DNA from: Serratia nematodiphila DZ0503SBS1
GTDB lineage: Bacteria > Pseudomonadota > Gammaproteobacteria > Enterobacterales > Enterobacteriaceae
DNA length: 64,000 bases
Assembly (NCBI RefSeq): GCF_000738675.1
Contig: NZ_JPUX01000001.1
Span: 3,472,001 to 3,536,000 of the forward strand
Direction: 5' to 3'
In this document: positions 11,813-20,838 of the stretch, one piece after another
How positions within the stretch are numbered: position 1 is the first letter of the stretch
Layout: each line of letters begins with the position of its first letter
Translations under genes and position numbers: made by a program
The notes under the pieces: generated by a model
Seen by the model: only the letters and a program-made list of their open reading frames with translations
Databases searched by the model: none
Told to the model about the DNA's origin: nothing

Positions 11813-11919
11813 ATAAATGGCCGTTTAATTAACATTATCCTAAATACTCCATAAACGACGGGCAATCTTTTCTTCCCGCCGGATAGAACAACGCCTATAC
11901 TGCGCCGGTAGTTTATATG

Positions 11920-12080
11920 CAGTATCTCGTTTGGCGAGGCTCCTATACAAACACAGGTTACTGATCTGACGACATCGAGAGATGCCCAAGGTTAAGACAG
12001 GCTTTATCGGATTAAGGTTCAGCCCAAAGTAACTTCCGAGCAACAACTCGGATACGTTGTATAGTGCTAAAACCTGGACG
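11920..12080 (+). ncRNA. M-box (ykoK) magnesium riboswitch
   Basis: The untranslated leader of mgtE carries the conserved core of the M-box: GGCGAGGCTCCTATACAA, CACAGGTTACTG, CGAGAGATGCC, AAGGTTAAGACAGG, GGATTAAGG, and the closing TTGTATAGTGCTAAAACCTGG. TATACAA (11944-11950) pairs with TTGTATA near 12056-12062 to close the multi-stem core. The class senses Mg2+ and shuts off magnesium transporters when Mg2+ is plentiful. The expression platform follows at 12081-12167. Confidence 0.9.
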
Positions 12081-12117
12081 CGGAGATAGGCAGTCTGCAC
12101 TCCCTCTGTGGTTACGC

Positions 12118-16200: not shown

Positions 16201-16230
16201 ACAGGCCGCCGGGCGGCGGCCTGTGAGATT
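16201..16230. repeat. Direct repeat, copy 2 (abuts ABC-F stop codon)
   Basis: Same sequence as 16037-16063 apart from three extra bases (an additional GGC unit) in the centre. It overlaps the stop codon of the ABC-F gene, so copy 1 may be a displaced duplicate of the gene's own terminator stem. Confidence 0.75.
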
Positions 16231-17959
16231 AGCCCAGATGCAACCGGGCGGTGATGTCGGCAATCTCGCGGCGCCAACGCGCCTGAAGCGCCGGTTTTTG
16301 ATGCTTCGGTTTACGAGCCAGGTCGGCCTCCAGTTTGCTTTCGAGGGCAAACAGGGCGGTCAGCAACGCCTCTTCGCCTTCCAACTGCGGGTCTGGCGTC
16401 GGGGCGTCTGCGTTGGCCTCGTGCGCCGTCGGCAGCGCCGGCGTTTCACCCGCCAGACGCTGGTACACCGGCGCCAGATCGTGCCACTCCTCCAGTTTTT
16501 GTTGGTCTATCAGCCAAAAGCGGTTGCAGCTCTGTTCGATCAGCATCCGATCGTGGGTGACCAGCATGACGGCGCCGGGGAACTGACGCAGCGTTTCCGC
16601 CAGCTCCTCTTTGCCCGCCATATCCAGGTGGTTGGTGGGCTCGTCCAGCAGCAGCAACGAATGGTTGGCCAGCGTCAGGCCGACAAACAGCAACCGTGAA
16701 CGCTCGCCGCCGCTCAGCGAACGGATCTGCTGATGGTGGCGCAGGTAAGGGAACCCGGCGCCGATCAGCGCCATTTTCCGCTGTTCCTCGGTCAGAGGCG
16801 CAAACTGCACCAGCGCTTCGCTCAACGTGTCTTCATCGCGCAACTGTTGCAGGCTCTGATCGTAATAGCCGATGCGCACGCGCGGATGGAACAGCGCCGG
16901 GCGCTGCGTTTGTTGCTGATACTCGCGCCACAGCAGGCGCAACAGCGACGATTTTCCGCAGCCGTTGCGCCCGACGATGGCGATGCGATCGCCGCTTTTC
17001 ACGCGCAGATGTTCCAGGCTGAACAGCACCGGCGCATCCGGCGCCGGGCGCACCGCCCAGTGCGGCAGCGCCAGCAGGCGATCGGCGTCCAGCGCTTCTC
17101 CCTGCAGCCGCAGCCGCCACGGGCTGCCGGCGGTCAGGGTGGTCTGTTCTTCCTTCAACCGATCGACGCGCTTCTCCATTTGCTTGGCCTTGCGCGCCAG
17201 ATCTTCGTTGTCGTAGACCTTGCCCCAGATCGCCAGGCGCTTGGCGCTTTTTTCCACCCGGTCGATTTCCTTTTGCTCGGCGTGGCGCCGCTGTTCGTCC
17301 GCGGCGTCCTGCTCCACCAGCGCGGTGCGCGCCGCAGAGCAGGGCAAACGGAAGAACTGCAGCGTTTTGTCGCGCAGGATCCAGGTGCAGTTGGTTACCT
17401 GGTCGAGCAGGTAGCGATCGTGCGACACCAGCACGAAGCTGCCGGTCCAGTTACGCAAGAACTGTTCCAGCCACAGCAGCGTGGGCAGGTCCAGGTGGTT
17501 GCTGGGTTCGTCGAGCAGCAGCAGATCGGGTTGGCGGATCAGCGCGCGCGCCAACAGCAGCCGCGTATGCTGGCCGCCGCTGAGGGTGCCGGCGGTCAAC
17601 GTCCAGCTCTCTGGTTCAAACCCCAGCTCGGCCAGTAGCGCTTCGCAGCGCCAGCGCTCGCTGAGGTGTTGGCCCGTAGGCAGCCGCGCCAGAACCGCAT
17701 CCAGCAGGGTACTGGCGTGCAGCTCCGGCGGCAGATGCTGCTCAATGCGCGCCATCAGACATTGATGTGACAATGTCACCGATCCGGTGTGCGCAGGCAG
17801 GTCGCCGCTGAGAATTTGCAGCAGGGTGCTTTTGCCGCAGCCGTTATCGCCGATCAAACCGATGCGGTCGCCTTTTTTCAGGCTGAAGGAAATCTCGCTC
17901 AGCAGGACGCCGAACGCGTTGTCGTAACCGACAGATTGTGCAGACAGTAATGTGCTCAT
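16229..17959 (-). CDS. ABC-F family ATPase
   Basis: This 576-residue soluble protein has two ABC domains and no membrane segments. The first has GDNGCGKST, LSGGQHTR and LLLLDEPSNHLD; the second has GRNGCGKSS, LSGGERSR and LLLLDEPTNHLD. A charged helical linker of about 80 residues (KEIDRVEKSAKRLAIWGKVYDNEDLARKAKQMEKRVDRLKEE, interrupted here) separates them. ABC-F proteins bind the ribosomal E site; some (EttA, Uup, YbiT) tune translation and others protect ribosomes from antibiotics. I cannot place it in a named subgroup. The upstream leader peptide and hairpins suggest inducible translation. Confidence 0.9.
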   Translation of the reverse strand: MSTLLSAQSVGYDNAFGVLLSEISFSLKKGDRIGLIGDNGCGKSTLLQILSGDLPAHTGSVTLSHQCLMARIEQHLPPELHASTLLDAVLARLPTGQHLSERWRCEALLAELGFEPESWTLTAGTLSGGQHTRLLLARALIRQPDLLLLDEPSNHLDLPTLLWLEQFLRNWTGSFVLVSHDRYLLDQVTNCTWILRDKTLQFFRLPCSAARTALVEQDAADEQRRHAEQKEIDRVEKSAKRLAIWGKVYDNEDLARKAKQMEKRVDRLKEEQTTLTAGSPWRLRLQGEALDADRLLALPHWAVRPAPDAPVLFSLEHLRVKSGDRIAIVGRNGCGKSSLLRLLWREYQQQTQRPALFHPRVRIGYYDQSLQQLRDEDTLSEALVQFAPLTEEQRKMALIGAGFPYLRHHQQIRSLSGGERSRLLFVGLTLANHSLLLLDEPTNHLDMAGKEELAETLRQFPGAVMLVTHDRMLIEQSCNRFWLIDQQKLEEWHDLAPVYQRLAGETPALPTAHEANADAPTPDPQLEGEEALLTALFALESKLEADLARKPKHQKPALQARWRREIADITARLHLG

Positions 17960-18103
17960 TGCTTACTCAAGAGTTACAGGCATGACAATGCCTATCGTCA
18001 AACATTGCTGACGACAACCCGGTAAGCCGGAGGGAAGATCCTGGATTTAGTAAGCTTCGCTCAAGCTGGGTTATCGCAGCGCGATACCGGTAATGCTTGA
18101 GCG
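17957..18103 (-). promoter_or_regulatory. Candidate translational attenuator of the ABC-F gene
   Basis: On the minus strand CGCTCAAGC (18103-18095), inside the end of the leader ORF, pairs with GCTTGAGCG (18066-18058). GCTTACT (18055-18049) can pair with AGTAAGC (17967-17961), which lies immediately before the ABC-F start codon. A second copy of CTTGAG (17971-17966) at the start region can compete for CTCAAG. These mutually exclusive helices, partly within the translated leader, are the layout expected of ribosome-stalling attenuation. Confidence 0.6.
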
Positions 18104-18154
18104 GCGACGATTACCAAAGAAGTGTGAGTGAAAAACCAATTCACACGTCAGCAT
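18071..18154 (-). CDS. Leader peptide upstream of the ABC-F gene
   Basis: A 27-codon ORF beginning ATG 18154 and ending TAA, preceded by AAAAGGAG at ideal spacing. The peptide runs MLTCELVFHSHFF then GNRRRSS and ends ITGIALR. It lies 111 bases upstream of the ABC-F start with a transcript-like arrangement (promoter, leader ORF, hairpins, gene). The RRR triplet resembles the basic-x-basic motif at which macrolides stall ribosomes in erm leaders; this is an analogy, not proof. I know no named homologue. Confidence 0.65.
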   Translation of the reverse strand: MLTCELVFHSHFFGNRRRSSITGIALR

Positions 18155-18196
18155 AGTAAGTCTCCTTTTATTGGTTGCAGGTTAATCGGTGGCTGG

Positions 18197-18225
18197 ATTA
18201 TAGAGCGCTTCATGCCGTATCGCCA
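18197..18225 (-). promoter_or_regulatory. Sigma-70 promoter of the leader/ABC-F transcript
   Basis: On the minus strand a perfect -10 box TATAAT (18202-18197) follows TGGCGA (18225-18220) with a 17-base spacer. The -35 element is poor. Transcription would begin about 40 bases before the leader ORF. No other feature was seen in the remaining 18226-18387 stretch except the shared upstream region of the MscS gene. Confidence 0.55.
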
Positions 18226-18387
18226 GTGTAAAAGCGCCTGAATAATCAGCAAGCTAAGGTGAGCGCGGGCGCGTGGCACACAATGGGAATAATTACTGTA
18301 TTTCGGCCGACATTAAGCAGCTATTATAATTAGCGTTTATGGTTAAGCGACGGTTCATCCGCCGCCTGTTCGTCTGTCTATCAGATA

Positions 18388-20838
18388 ATGATGCTGAGCA
18401 CTGAATTTATGTTAAAGCCTCGCCCGTTCCTGCTGTTGTTATTATTGCTGTTGGGTATGCAACTGACGCCGTTCGCCGCCGTCGCCGCCCCCCAGGATGA
18501 TCCCGCCGCCGAAAGCGCGCCCGATCCCGCTACGCAGCTGAAAGCCGCGCAAAAGCAGTTGGACAGCATGAAGCAGCTGGTTTCCAAAGCGACGACCGAC
18601 ACCCAGCTCAGCAAACTGCGGTTGGCGACGGACGATCTGGTCGCCAGCATGGATAAATTGTCCGCCGATCTGCAGCCGGTGCAGGAAAAACTGCAGGCGC
18701 AGCTGGACGTGCTGGGGCCGGCCCCGGCGGCCGGCGCGCTGCCGGAAACCCCGGCCGTCGCCCAGCAACGCAATGCGCTGAACAACAGCAAGAAGCAGCT
18801 GGACGATGCGGTAAAACGCGCGCAGGCCATCAAGACCAGCGCCTTCGACCTGGGCCAGCAGATCAGCGATCTGCGTCGGGTGGCGTTCAAAACCCAGCTG
18901 GCGCTGAACACCGGCAGCATTTTGGGCGTCAAATTCTGGACGCCGGTGGTGCAGCCGTCAGCGGATGACGTGCAGCGGCTGGACCAGTTCAATGCCGAGA
19001 TGAAAGCGGCCTGGGACGCCAGTTGGCAGGACGAATGGCGTTACGGTTCGCTGGCGCTGCTGGCGCTGGCGGTGATCGTCTGGTCCTGGGGGCGTTATTT
19101 CTCCGAGCGTTTCCTCGCCTGGGTCAGCATTCGCTTCCTGCCGGACGGGCGCCTGCGCCGCAGCTTCATGGCGATCGTCACCGTGGCGGTGACGGTGATC
19201 ACCACCTCGATCGCGCTGAATCTTCTGTATTACGTCTTTGTCCGCGTGCAGCCGCTGCCGGTGATGCTGGAAGACTTCGCCGAAGGCTTTAACCGTCTGG
19301 GGATTTTCTGTGCGCTGATCGCCGGGTTGGGGCGTGCGGCGCTGTCGCTGAATCGTCCGTCGTGGCGTCTGGCTGCGCTGGACAATGAAGTGGCCGCCGG
19401 GCTGCGTTACTTCTCGCCGCTGCTGGCCGGTCTGGCGCTGGCGTTCGGCACCGTGGAGCTGATCAACAACGTCGTCAGCGCCTCATTGGCCACCACCATC
19501 TTCGGCAATGGCCTGGTGGCGGGGCTGATCGGCATGGTGCTGCTGGCGGCGCCGCTGCGCGGCCAGCGCATTCGTCGCCGTCTGGAGCAGCAGGGTGCGC
19601 ACCTGGAAAAACGCACGCTGGTCGGCGGGCTGGTGCACATCGTCACCCTGGTGTGTTCGGTGGTGATCCTGCTTTCCCTGCTTATCGGCTACATCGCCTT
19701 CGCCCGTTTCCTGACCTACCAGCTGATCTGGGTGGTGCTGGTGCTGATGGCGTTCTACTTCATGGTGCTGTTCGCCACCGACCTGTGCGCCGCGCTGTTT
19801 TCGCCGCAAACCGTCAGCGGCAAAATGCTGAAGAAAACGCTCAGCTTCAAGGATCGCCATCTGGAGCAGGTGGCGATCATCACCACCGCGCTGGCCAAAT
19901 GTTCACTGTTGCTGTTGATGATCGTCGCGTTGTTCAACGGCTCGTTTGGCAGCACCACGCCGGGCTCGCTGATGGAGAAAATCGTCTCCATCCTGACCGG
20001 CGAAGGGCTGCAGCGTTTCAACATCGTGCCCGGCAACCTGCTCAACGCCGTGATCTGCCTGGCGATCGGCATCTACATTCTGCGTGCGGTACGGCGCTGG
20101 CTCGGTTCTGAGCTGTTGCCGAAAACCATTTCGGACGTCGGCATCCGCGCCTCGCTGGTGACGCTGTTCAGCAATATCGGCTATGTGCTGGTGATTCTGA
20201 TCACCCTGGCAGCGCTGGGCATCCAGTGGAGCAACCTGGCGTGGATCGTCAGCGCCCTGTCGGTCGGTATCGGTTTCGGTTTGCAGGAGATTGTGAAGAA
20301 CTTTATTTCCGGCCTGATCCTGCTGACCGAACGCCCGGTGAAGGTCGGGGATATGATCGGCATCGGCGGCGTGGAAGGCGACGTGCGGCGCATCAACGTG
20401 CGCGCTACCGAAATTCAGCTCAGCGACCGCTCCACCATGATCGTACCGAACTCGCAGCTGATCTCGCAGAACGTGCGTAACGCCACCATGGGCAACGCGC
20501 AAGGCGTGGTGACCATCGCGTTGACGTTCCCGACCTCGATCGATCCGGAGCAGGTGCGCAATATCTTGCTCAGCGCCTATAACGAGTACGAAACCATTCT
20601 GGACACGCCGGCGCCTTACGTGCGCTTCAGCCAACTGGGGCCAGACGGCATTATCCTGAGCGTGACCGGCTATGTGCCGAGCCCGCGCATGGTCGGCGCC
20701 ACCAAGAGTGAACTGCTGTTCAATATCCTCAAGCTGCTGCGCGCGCAGGAAGTGAGCCTGTCCAGCCCGCAGGAAGTGGTGTTTATGAAGCAGCAGGCGA
20801 CGCGATATCAGGCCAATGAAGAGGAGCACTCCTCCTAG
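18388..20838 (+). CDS. DUF3772-domain MscS-type mechanosensitive channel
   Basis: This large inner-membrane protein of about 816 residues starts at ATG 18388, or at 18409 if MLKPRPFLLLL is the true signal-peptide start. A signal peptide is followed by a periplasmic, coiled-coil-rich DUF3772 region (about residues 50-210), then some ten or eleven membrane helices, then the MscS core. The pore-helix region (SVGIGFGLQEIVKNFISGLILLTERPVKVGD, split here by the domain boundary) and the cytoplasmic beta domain (GVEGDVRRINVRATEI) are clear. Such channels open on hypo-osmotic shock. The gene is monocistronic and converges on a lipoprotein gene. Confidence 0.88.
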   Translation: MMLSTEFMLKPRPFLLLLLLLLGMQLTPFAAVAAPQDDPAAESAPDPATQLKAAQKQLDSMKQLVSKATTDTQLSKLRLATDDLVASMDKLSADLQPVQEKLQAQLDVLGPAPAAGALPETPAVAQQRNALNNSKKQLDDAVKRAQAIKTSAFDLGQQISDLRRVAFKTQLALNTGSILGVKFWTPVVQPSADDVQRLDQFNAEMKAAWDASWQDEWRYGSLALLALAVIVWSWGRYFSERFLAWVSIRFLPDGRLRRSFMAIVTVAVTVITTSIALNLLYYVFVRVQPLPVMLEDFAEGFNRLGIFCALIAGLGRAALSLNRPSWRLAALDNEVAAGLRYFSPLLAGLALAFGTVELINNVVSASLATTIFGNGLVAGLIGMVLLAAPLRGQRIRRRLEQQGAHLEKRTLVGGLVHIVTLVCSVVILLSLLIGYIAFARFLTYQLIWVVLVLMAFYFMVLFATDLCAALFSPQTVSGKMLKKTLSFKDRHLEQVAIITTALAKCSLLLLMIVALFNGSFGSTTPGSLMEKIVSILTGEGLQRFNIVPGNLLNAVICLAIGIYILRAVRRWLGSELLPKTISDVGIRASLVTLFSNIGYVLVILITLAALGIQWSNLAWIVSALSVGIGFGLQEIVKNFISGLILLTERPVKVGDMIGIGGVEGDVRRINVRATEIQLSDRSTMIVPNSQLISQNVRNATMGNAQGVVTIALTFPTSIDPEQVRNILLSAYNEYETILDTPAPYVRFSQLGPDGIILSVTGYVPSPRMVGATKSELLFNILKLLRAQEVSLSSPQEVVFMKQQATRYQANEEEHSS

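Follow-up and report, generated by a model that had tools for sequence, protein, structure and literature searches.

The subject of this analysis is a stretch of 64,000 nucleotides (nt) from Serratia nematodiphila DZ0503SBS1 (contig NZ_JPUX01000001.1, positions 3,472,001 to 3,536,000), referred to below as the window, and within it the gene for an ABC-F protein together with the short leader that precedes it. The leader open reading frame (ORF) lies on the minus strand at 18154-18071, has 27 codons, encodes the peptide MLTCELVFHSHFFGNRRRSSITGIALR and starts 195 nt upstream of the ABC-F gene. It is overlapped by a 9-bp hairpin in which CGCTCAAGC (18103-18095) pairs with GCTTGAGCG (18066-18058). 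An original prediction for this DNA had named the ORF, its strong Shine-Dalgarno (SD) sequence and the hairpin, and all are present as it stated. It also proposed a translational attenuator, and this design has stood: a leader ORF with competing hairpins able to mask the ABC-F start is kept over many genera, and the element is probably an attenuator, controlled by ribosome stalling, of an ABC-F protein that fits subfamily PAF1. The features of the locus are as follows.

18197..18202, minus strand: probable -10 element TATAAT, 48 nt upstream of the leader ATG, from the sequence
18162..18167, minus strand: leader SD sequence AAGGAG, from the sequence and conserved across 124 loci
18071..18154, minus strand: leader ORF, 27 codons plus stop, from conservation in 124/124 loci and a codon test
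18107..18118, minus strand: leader codons 13-16, F-G-N-R, the conserved core where a stall is proposed, from codon and spacing analysis
18095..18102, minus strand: outer part of arm A, GCTCAAGC, within the leader ORF, partner B or D, from arm swaps and double changes
18082..18088, minus strand: inner part of arm A, GGTATCG, partner CGATAACC of arm B, from alignment pair counts (helix 2)
18068..18077, minus strand: arm B part 1, GCGATAACCC, spanning the leader stop codon, partner inner A or C, from arm swaps and pair counts
18059..18066, minus strand: arm B part 2, GCTTGAGC, partner outer A, from pair counts (helix 1)
18049..18055, minus strand: GCTTACT of the original prediction, present and without conservation in other genera, from the sequence and cross-genus comparison
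18022..18027, minus strand: arm C part 1, GCTTAC, partner GTAAGC of arm D, from pair counts (helix 3), the swap test being weaker
18012..18020, minus strand: arm C part 2, GGGTTGTCG, partner arm B, from pair counts (helix 2 of the A:D plus B:C fold)
17996..18013, minus strand: small hairpin CGTCA / TGACG, from pair counts (helix 4)
17978..17993, minus strand: small hairpin AGGCAT / ATGCCT, five pairs with double changes
17961..17971, minus strand: arm D, CTTGAGTAAGC, at the ABC-F start, before the ATG, partner A or C, from arm swaps and pair counts
16229..17959, minus strand: ABC-F protein of 576 amino acids that fits subfamily PAF1 by distribution, from domain, structure and distribution analyses

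Conservation of the leader was followed through 124 loci, made up of the best 80 of 400 ABC-F relatives from a protein scan of a genome collection and a further 30 and 14 from two other genome searches. The window's own genome is among them (L107), some species may recur across the three sets, and some loci are close relatives; 26 Serratia loci (L081-L106) stand apart from the 124. A leader ORF with an SD sequence precedes the ABC-F gene at all 124 loci, including every one of the best 80 of 400 relatives, and begins 181-244 nt before it. Across these loci the ABC-F protein is as little as 50% identical to that of the window. The genera concerned include Serratia, Yersinia, Rahnella, Enterobacter, Proteus, Providencia, Vibrio, Photobacterium, Endozoicomonas and others. 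Leader length is 27 codons at 99 loci, 26 at 14, 28 at 7, and 24, 30, 32 and 35 (L132) at one each. The 32-codon count (L112) reflects a wrong frame, the right one having 27 codons; at L017 the leader runs three codons beyond the usual stop. The SD sequence reads AAGGAGG at 118 loci, AAGGAG at 5 and AGGAGG at 1, and a TANNNT hexamer with at least four of six matches lies 38-58 nt upstream of the leader ATG at 110/124 loci, the distance being 46-48 nt in 85 of the 110. Leader DNA was found in 26 of 30 Serratia genomes, the remaining four of which measure 1.5-3.6 Mb. When 31 nearest pairs were compared over codons 2-17, 35 of 81 single-change codons were synonymous against 21.3 expected (p 7e-4), and the same test in the other two frames gave 18 against 18.3 and 9 against 19.4 expected. 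Judged by these comparisons, leader codons 2-17 are under coding selection.

The conserved core of the peptide contains a dipeptide at a fixed distance from arm A. The codon lying exactly 14 nt upstream of that arm's CTC specifies G at 99 loci, S at 19, A at 4 and W at 1, and the preceding residue is F at 75, L at 33 and Y at 15 (n=123), so that [FLY]-[GSA] stands exactly 14 nt upstream of arm A in 122/123 loci. The search window did not pick up L055, the locus outside this count, which by eye has LFG at 14 nt. SHTFGDR and SHFFGNR are the forms in which the core usually appears in Enterobacter- and Proteus-type leaders, and residues 17 and 18 vary freely. The original prediction had also pointed to RRR in the Serratia peptide as close to the basic-x-basic motif of macrolide-stalled leaders. 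Among 96 distinct leader peptides (the wrong-frame peptide of L112 included), RRR occurs in 5, all from Serratia, with 14 containing any [RK]x[RK]; because RRR is so rare, the macrolide argument falls. The C-terminal part of the peptide follows the RNA. The leader of L180 (genome G895, from another family of the order), MNIGEIAFAYFFGNPNAQDRFIALR, retains FFG and IALR and reads the CTCAAG arm in a different frame, and at L132 the reading frame shifts after arm A.

Sequence comparison indicates that four RNA arms are conserved: A within the ORF, B at the leader stop codon, D at the ABC-F start, and C between B and D. In the window the leader stretch folds better than dinucleotide shuffles of it (z -2.72; 3 of 200 shuffles equally good). 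Pairing was counted in an alignment of 38 sequences (A2), and partner matching was examined by arm swaps among 39 non-redundant loci of 121, with L024 in the swap set and outside A2; automatic arm cutting failed for three of the 124 loci (L017, L112, L126). Neither shuffles nor arm swaps remove relatedness among loci. The paired fraction of cells in A2 is 95.2% for A:D, 98.5% for B:C, 97.0% for A:B, 84.2% for inner A:B and 87.5% for C:D. The fold A:D plus B:C with the small hairpin has 29 double-change cells against a shuffled mean of 9.5, and the fold A:B plus C:D with the hairpins has 47 against 14.7 (A:B 11, inner A:B 5, C:D 4, hairpins 27). Neither value was reached in 500 shuffles, and slid partners gave at most 11 and 22, respectively. 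The original prediction had asked for a check of conservation and covariation across Enterobacterales; the leader frame is kept at 124/124 loci, and double changes exceed 500/500 shuffles.

In the arm-swap test, A:B, B:C and A:D were each matched by 0/2000 permutations, and the control pairings A:C and B:D by 132 and 1472 of 2000. The three pairings remain at 0/2000 without the most distant locus, L147 (arm A GCTCTTGC, arm D GCAAGAGC); when L147 is left out and an 11-nt core of A is used, A:D is matched by 2/2000. Nonsynonymous changes in arm A are matched by changes in the noncoding arm B. In the arm swaps A:B, B:C and A:D depend on matching partners, the case for C:D being weaker. By comparison of the loci, the leader would form mutually exclusive folds, one of which masks the downstream start. 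The arms differ in part from those first proposed. GCTTACT (18055-18049) was to mask AGTAAGC (17967-17961), and both are present, but GCTTACT is not kept in other genera, and the conserved partner is the GCTTAC at 18027-18022. CTTGAG (17971-17966), described as a copy of the hairpin arm, is there as well; since it is complementary to the leader arm CTCAAG, it is also a pairing partner and not merely a copy. A pairing of CTTACT at the leader start with AGTAAG was rejected, being without conservation. In Rouxiella (L039, L046) arms C and D are divergent, GCATTCC/GGAATAC and GCTTTCC/GGAAAAAGC, and still look partly complementary.

The arms and the gene travel together. A covariance model of the arms, to which some of these loci contributed, has one match per genome in 44/394 genomes of the order, including all 18 in which the ABC-F gene was detected at E 1e-120. 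Thirty of the 44 matches were inspected and all 30 lie directly upstream of the ABC-F gene; four further matches (G240, G299, G312, G346) adjoin ABC-F genes by their coordinates. Five of six further sources also have matches, including a Klebsiella record, an Ewingella record and a viral-contig locus; L219, which has a 5'-truncated ABC-F gene, has no match to the arm model. A class-wide search with the model found the window's own genome and a weak match at L181 (E 0.003), which was taken as chance, no ABC-F gene lying beside it. Two records from a plasmid collection have no gene annotated at the leader, in an annotation table that is incomplete.

The protein belongs to the ABC-F family: it has two ABC domains, a linker of two long helices and no membrane part. 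Pfam ABC_tran matches two stretches of it, and in the structure model (predicted local distance difference test score, pLDDT, 87.8) the linker helices span residues 207-248 and 252-270, with ABC-F chains as the top structure matches. It scores 335.9 bits against the curated ribosomal-protection model NF000355, under the cut-off of 380, and three housekeeping-looking paralogues in the same genome exceed that cut-off, so the model does not discriminate; in structure comparison, resistance and housekeeping ABC-Fs give tied rows. The gene is present in 30/149 genomes of the family (E 1e-150), 18/197 of the order (E 1e-120) and 1/369 of a class sample (E 1e-110), the last being the window's own genome, and a blastn search of an E. 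coli collection at E 1e-20 gave no match. Of 40 plasmid records for it, 38 are non-mobilizable, and 27 of these are from Pantoea or Rahnella. PAF1, predicted to be a resistance ABC-F, is described as present in Vibrio, Enterobacter, Serratia and Citrobacter and absent from Escherichia in the available parts of Murina et al. 2019 (PMC6723617). The window protein has the range given for PAF1, with a Klebsiella record besides, and by distribution it fits this subfamily. The window's genome also contains a further ABC-F frame of 545 residues (G000:C1:1588840-1590309; L184, L188), beyond the four that resemble YheS, YbiT, Uup and EttA, and reading by eye shows a short frame with an ATG start, MNNHAC*, ahead of that gene. 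On the viral contig L219 (1500-2010), an ABC-F gene lacking its first 17 residues adjoins the apparent end of a phage integrase, so a prophage may border or interrupt it.

How a ribosome on the leader could act on the ABC-F start was simulated for 39 loci by positioning a ribosome at every leader codon in turn, folding the RNA on its 3' side and taking the mean unpaired probability of positions -16 to +3 at the ABC-F start. The leading edge was set 15 nt beyond the first base of the codon in the P site, and residues were counted back from the leader end. Opening is 0.385 without a ribosome and 0.376-0.398 while the P site is at any of residues 1-12; it rises to 0.464 at residue 14 and 0.531-0.544 at residues 15-20, and falls to 0.418-0.434 at 26-27. 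With the P site just after [GSA] it is 0.531, above the ribosome-free value in 35/39 loci (p 6e-10), above that three codons earlier in 38/39 and above that at the last codon in 33/39. Shuffling arms A to C abolishes the gain (0.005, 20/39 loci). The P-site positions that open the start thus coincide with the conserved dipeptide, which is what an attenuator responding to a ribosome stalled there should show. At the ABC-F start itself, as placed by tblastn, none of GGAGG, AGGAG, GAGG, GGAG, AGGA or AAGG occurs within 18 nt upstream in any of the 124 loci.

These observations suggest the following mechanism. Without a stalled ribosome, arm D would be masked either by arm A, in the nested fold A:D plus B:C, or by arm C, in the fold A:B plus C:D. 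A ribosome stalling just after [FLY]-[GSA], with its P site at residue 15 or 16 in the window, would cover A with its leading edge and leave B free; B would then hold C, D would be released and the ABC-F protein made. A ribosome running on to the stop codon would cover A and the start of B, thereby freeing C, and D would be largely masked again.

Several results weigh against this interpretation. The pairing A:D supplies 2 of the 29 double-change cells of its fold (B:C 6, the small hairpin 21), and by that measure it is thin. The measure of further pair types for the A:D plus B:C fold was matched by 37/500 shuffles, and C:D was matched by 17 and 26 of 2000 arm-swap permutations in two runs. 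RNAalifold alone gives 12 pairs, comprising A:B and one small hairpin. In the simulation, a ribosome at the last codon also slightly opens the start (0.434 against 0.385 without a ribosome, in 26/39 loci), and the opening effect is of moderate size.

If the attenuator is right, the stall is rather more readily ascribed to a drug than to anything else; the likeliest cause would be a drug acting at the peptidyl-transferase centre or exit tunnel and relieved by this ABC-F protein. The best-surviving alternative, which we consider unlikely, is an autogenous stall sensor that needs no drug: the leader would stall ribosomes by itself, and the ABC-F protein would relieve the stall, lowering its own synthesis until it is drawn to other stalled ribosomes. 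The same anatomy fits, and the [FLY]-[GSA] core is conserved in spite of there being no evident drug-specific motif. There are also precedents in the parts of the papers available: MsrD reportedly reduces induction at its own leader (PMC10314930), and EttA acts on the leader MgtL (PMC11282234). Against this alternative stands the patchy presence of the gene, in 30/149 genomes, which is unlike that of a housekeeping factor.

Control through RNA polymerase, by intrinsic or Rho-dependent termination as in vmlR or msrD, is less likely again. Resistance ABC-Fs are usually controlled in this way, according to the accessible portions of PMC9226507, PMC10201436 and PMC10314930. However, no terminator-like site was found in the leader, the sole one found lying inside the ABC-F gene; T6 runs occur in 6/124 leaders and are read as hairpin loops; and the conserved arm D is located at the ABC-F start. 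Intrinsic termination was rejected on the lack of a terminator signal in the leader; Rho may still play a part here. Classical amino-acid attenuation, with stalling caused by scarcity of one charged tRNA, is suggested by the repeated, rare-looking Arg codons near the arm in Serratia; it is made improbable by the lack of any conserved single-residue run, by the rarity of RRR and the freedom of residues 17 and 18 noted above, and by a target that is a ribosome factor rather than a biosynthetic gene. Least probable of all is a functional small protein with RNA pairing secondary to it, which would explain selection on residues 10-16 but not why noncoding B carries changes that match the nonsynonymous ones in arm A, why L180 reads that arm in another frame or why L132 changes frame after A.

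A broader reading of the ribosome-stall attenuator can be offered tentatively, at somewhat less than even confidence. The leaders would represent a new type of arrest peptide, ancient and widely distributed, whose core [FLY]-[GSA] is fixed 14 nt from an arm able to mask the start of the ABC-F; they would sense a peptidyl-transferase-centre inhibitor or a stalled-ribosome state sensed by no described leader, and PAF1 would be an inducible Gram-negative clearing factor. A leader kept so strictly amounts to a built-in sensor, and its stall trigger would tell the purpose of PAF1, a predicted resistance ABC-F in genera that include pathogens, for which no trigger was found in the printed material available. 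The trigger could also bring to light a new rule for how context governs ribosome stalling. Since many bacteria from the gut, from plants and from the sea share the switch, there is a direct route to the stress or antibiotic that this little-studied gene answers.

Leader-controlled genes of several kinds offer points of comparison. In translational attenuators of the ermC type, a leader peptide governs alternative hairpins, 1:2 plus 3:4 or 2:3, that mask or free the start of an rRNA methylase gene. The present element differs in that the start itself is a further complement of arm A (A:D) and in that the target is an ABC-F protein. Closer in target are the leaders of vmlR, vmlR2, cplR and lsaA, in which, according to the available parts of PMC9226507 and PMC10201436, a drug-stalled upstream ORF (uORF) refolds the leader RNA and exposes the ABC-F start. 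The uORFs in question are 3-4 codons long and stall during initiation or immediately afterwards, and vmlR and cplR also have a terminator, whereas the Serratia leader has about 27 codons, its core at residues 13-16 and no terminator signal. The msrD leader MsrDL likewise exerts leader-peptide control over an ABC-F gene, but has six codons, a macrolide stall at the stop codon and an intrinsic terminator, as described in accessible passages of PMC10314930. In Gram-negative bacteria, toiL of E. coli topAI is a uORF that responds to drugs acting on the ribosome by exposing the ribosome-binding site downstream (PMC12121999, in the portions available); its target genes are different, and the likeness noted is one of mechanism. 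By analogy, the Serratia element would work like the Gram-positive ABC-F attenuators, its drug inducer being putative, and it would add to the known ABC-F controls a long-leader, terminator-less translational attenuator in Gram-negative chromosomes. For PAF1 itself, PMC6723617 gives a predicted resistance factor with the same range; the terms 'uORF' and 'upstream open reading' do not occur in it, and its available passages mention no leader or inducer. The view of the original prediction that the element is undescribed in Serratia agrees with literature searches, which found no description of the leader with subscription papers mostly beyond reach, and with Rfam, which has no covariance-model match to it up to E 1 in 17900-18420.

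Two other features of the window may be recorded. Divergent from the leader, at 18388-20838 on the plus strand, lies a gene for a mechanosensitive-channel-like protein of 816 amino acids, whose best NCBIfam model is MscK, well under the cut-off. At 11919-12092 on the plus strand there is an M-box magnesium riboswitch (143.2 bits), and an open frame starting at 12108 comes next.
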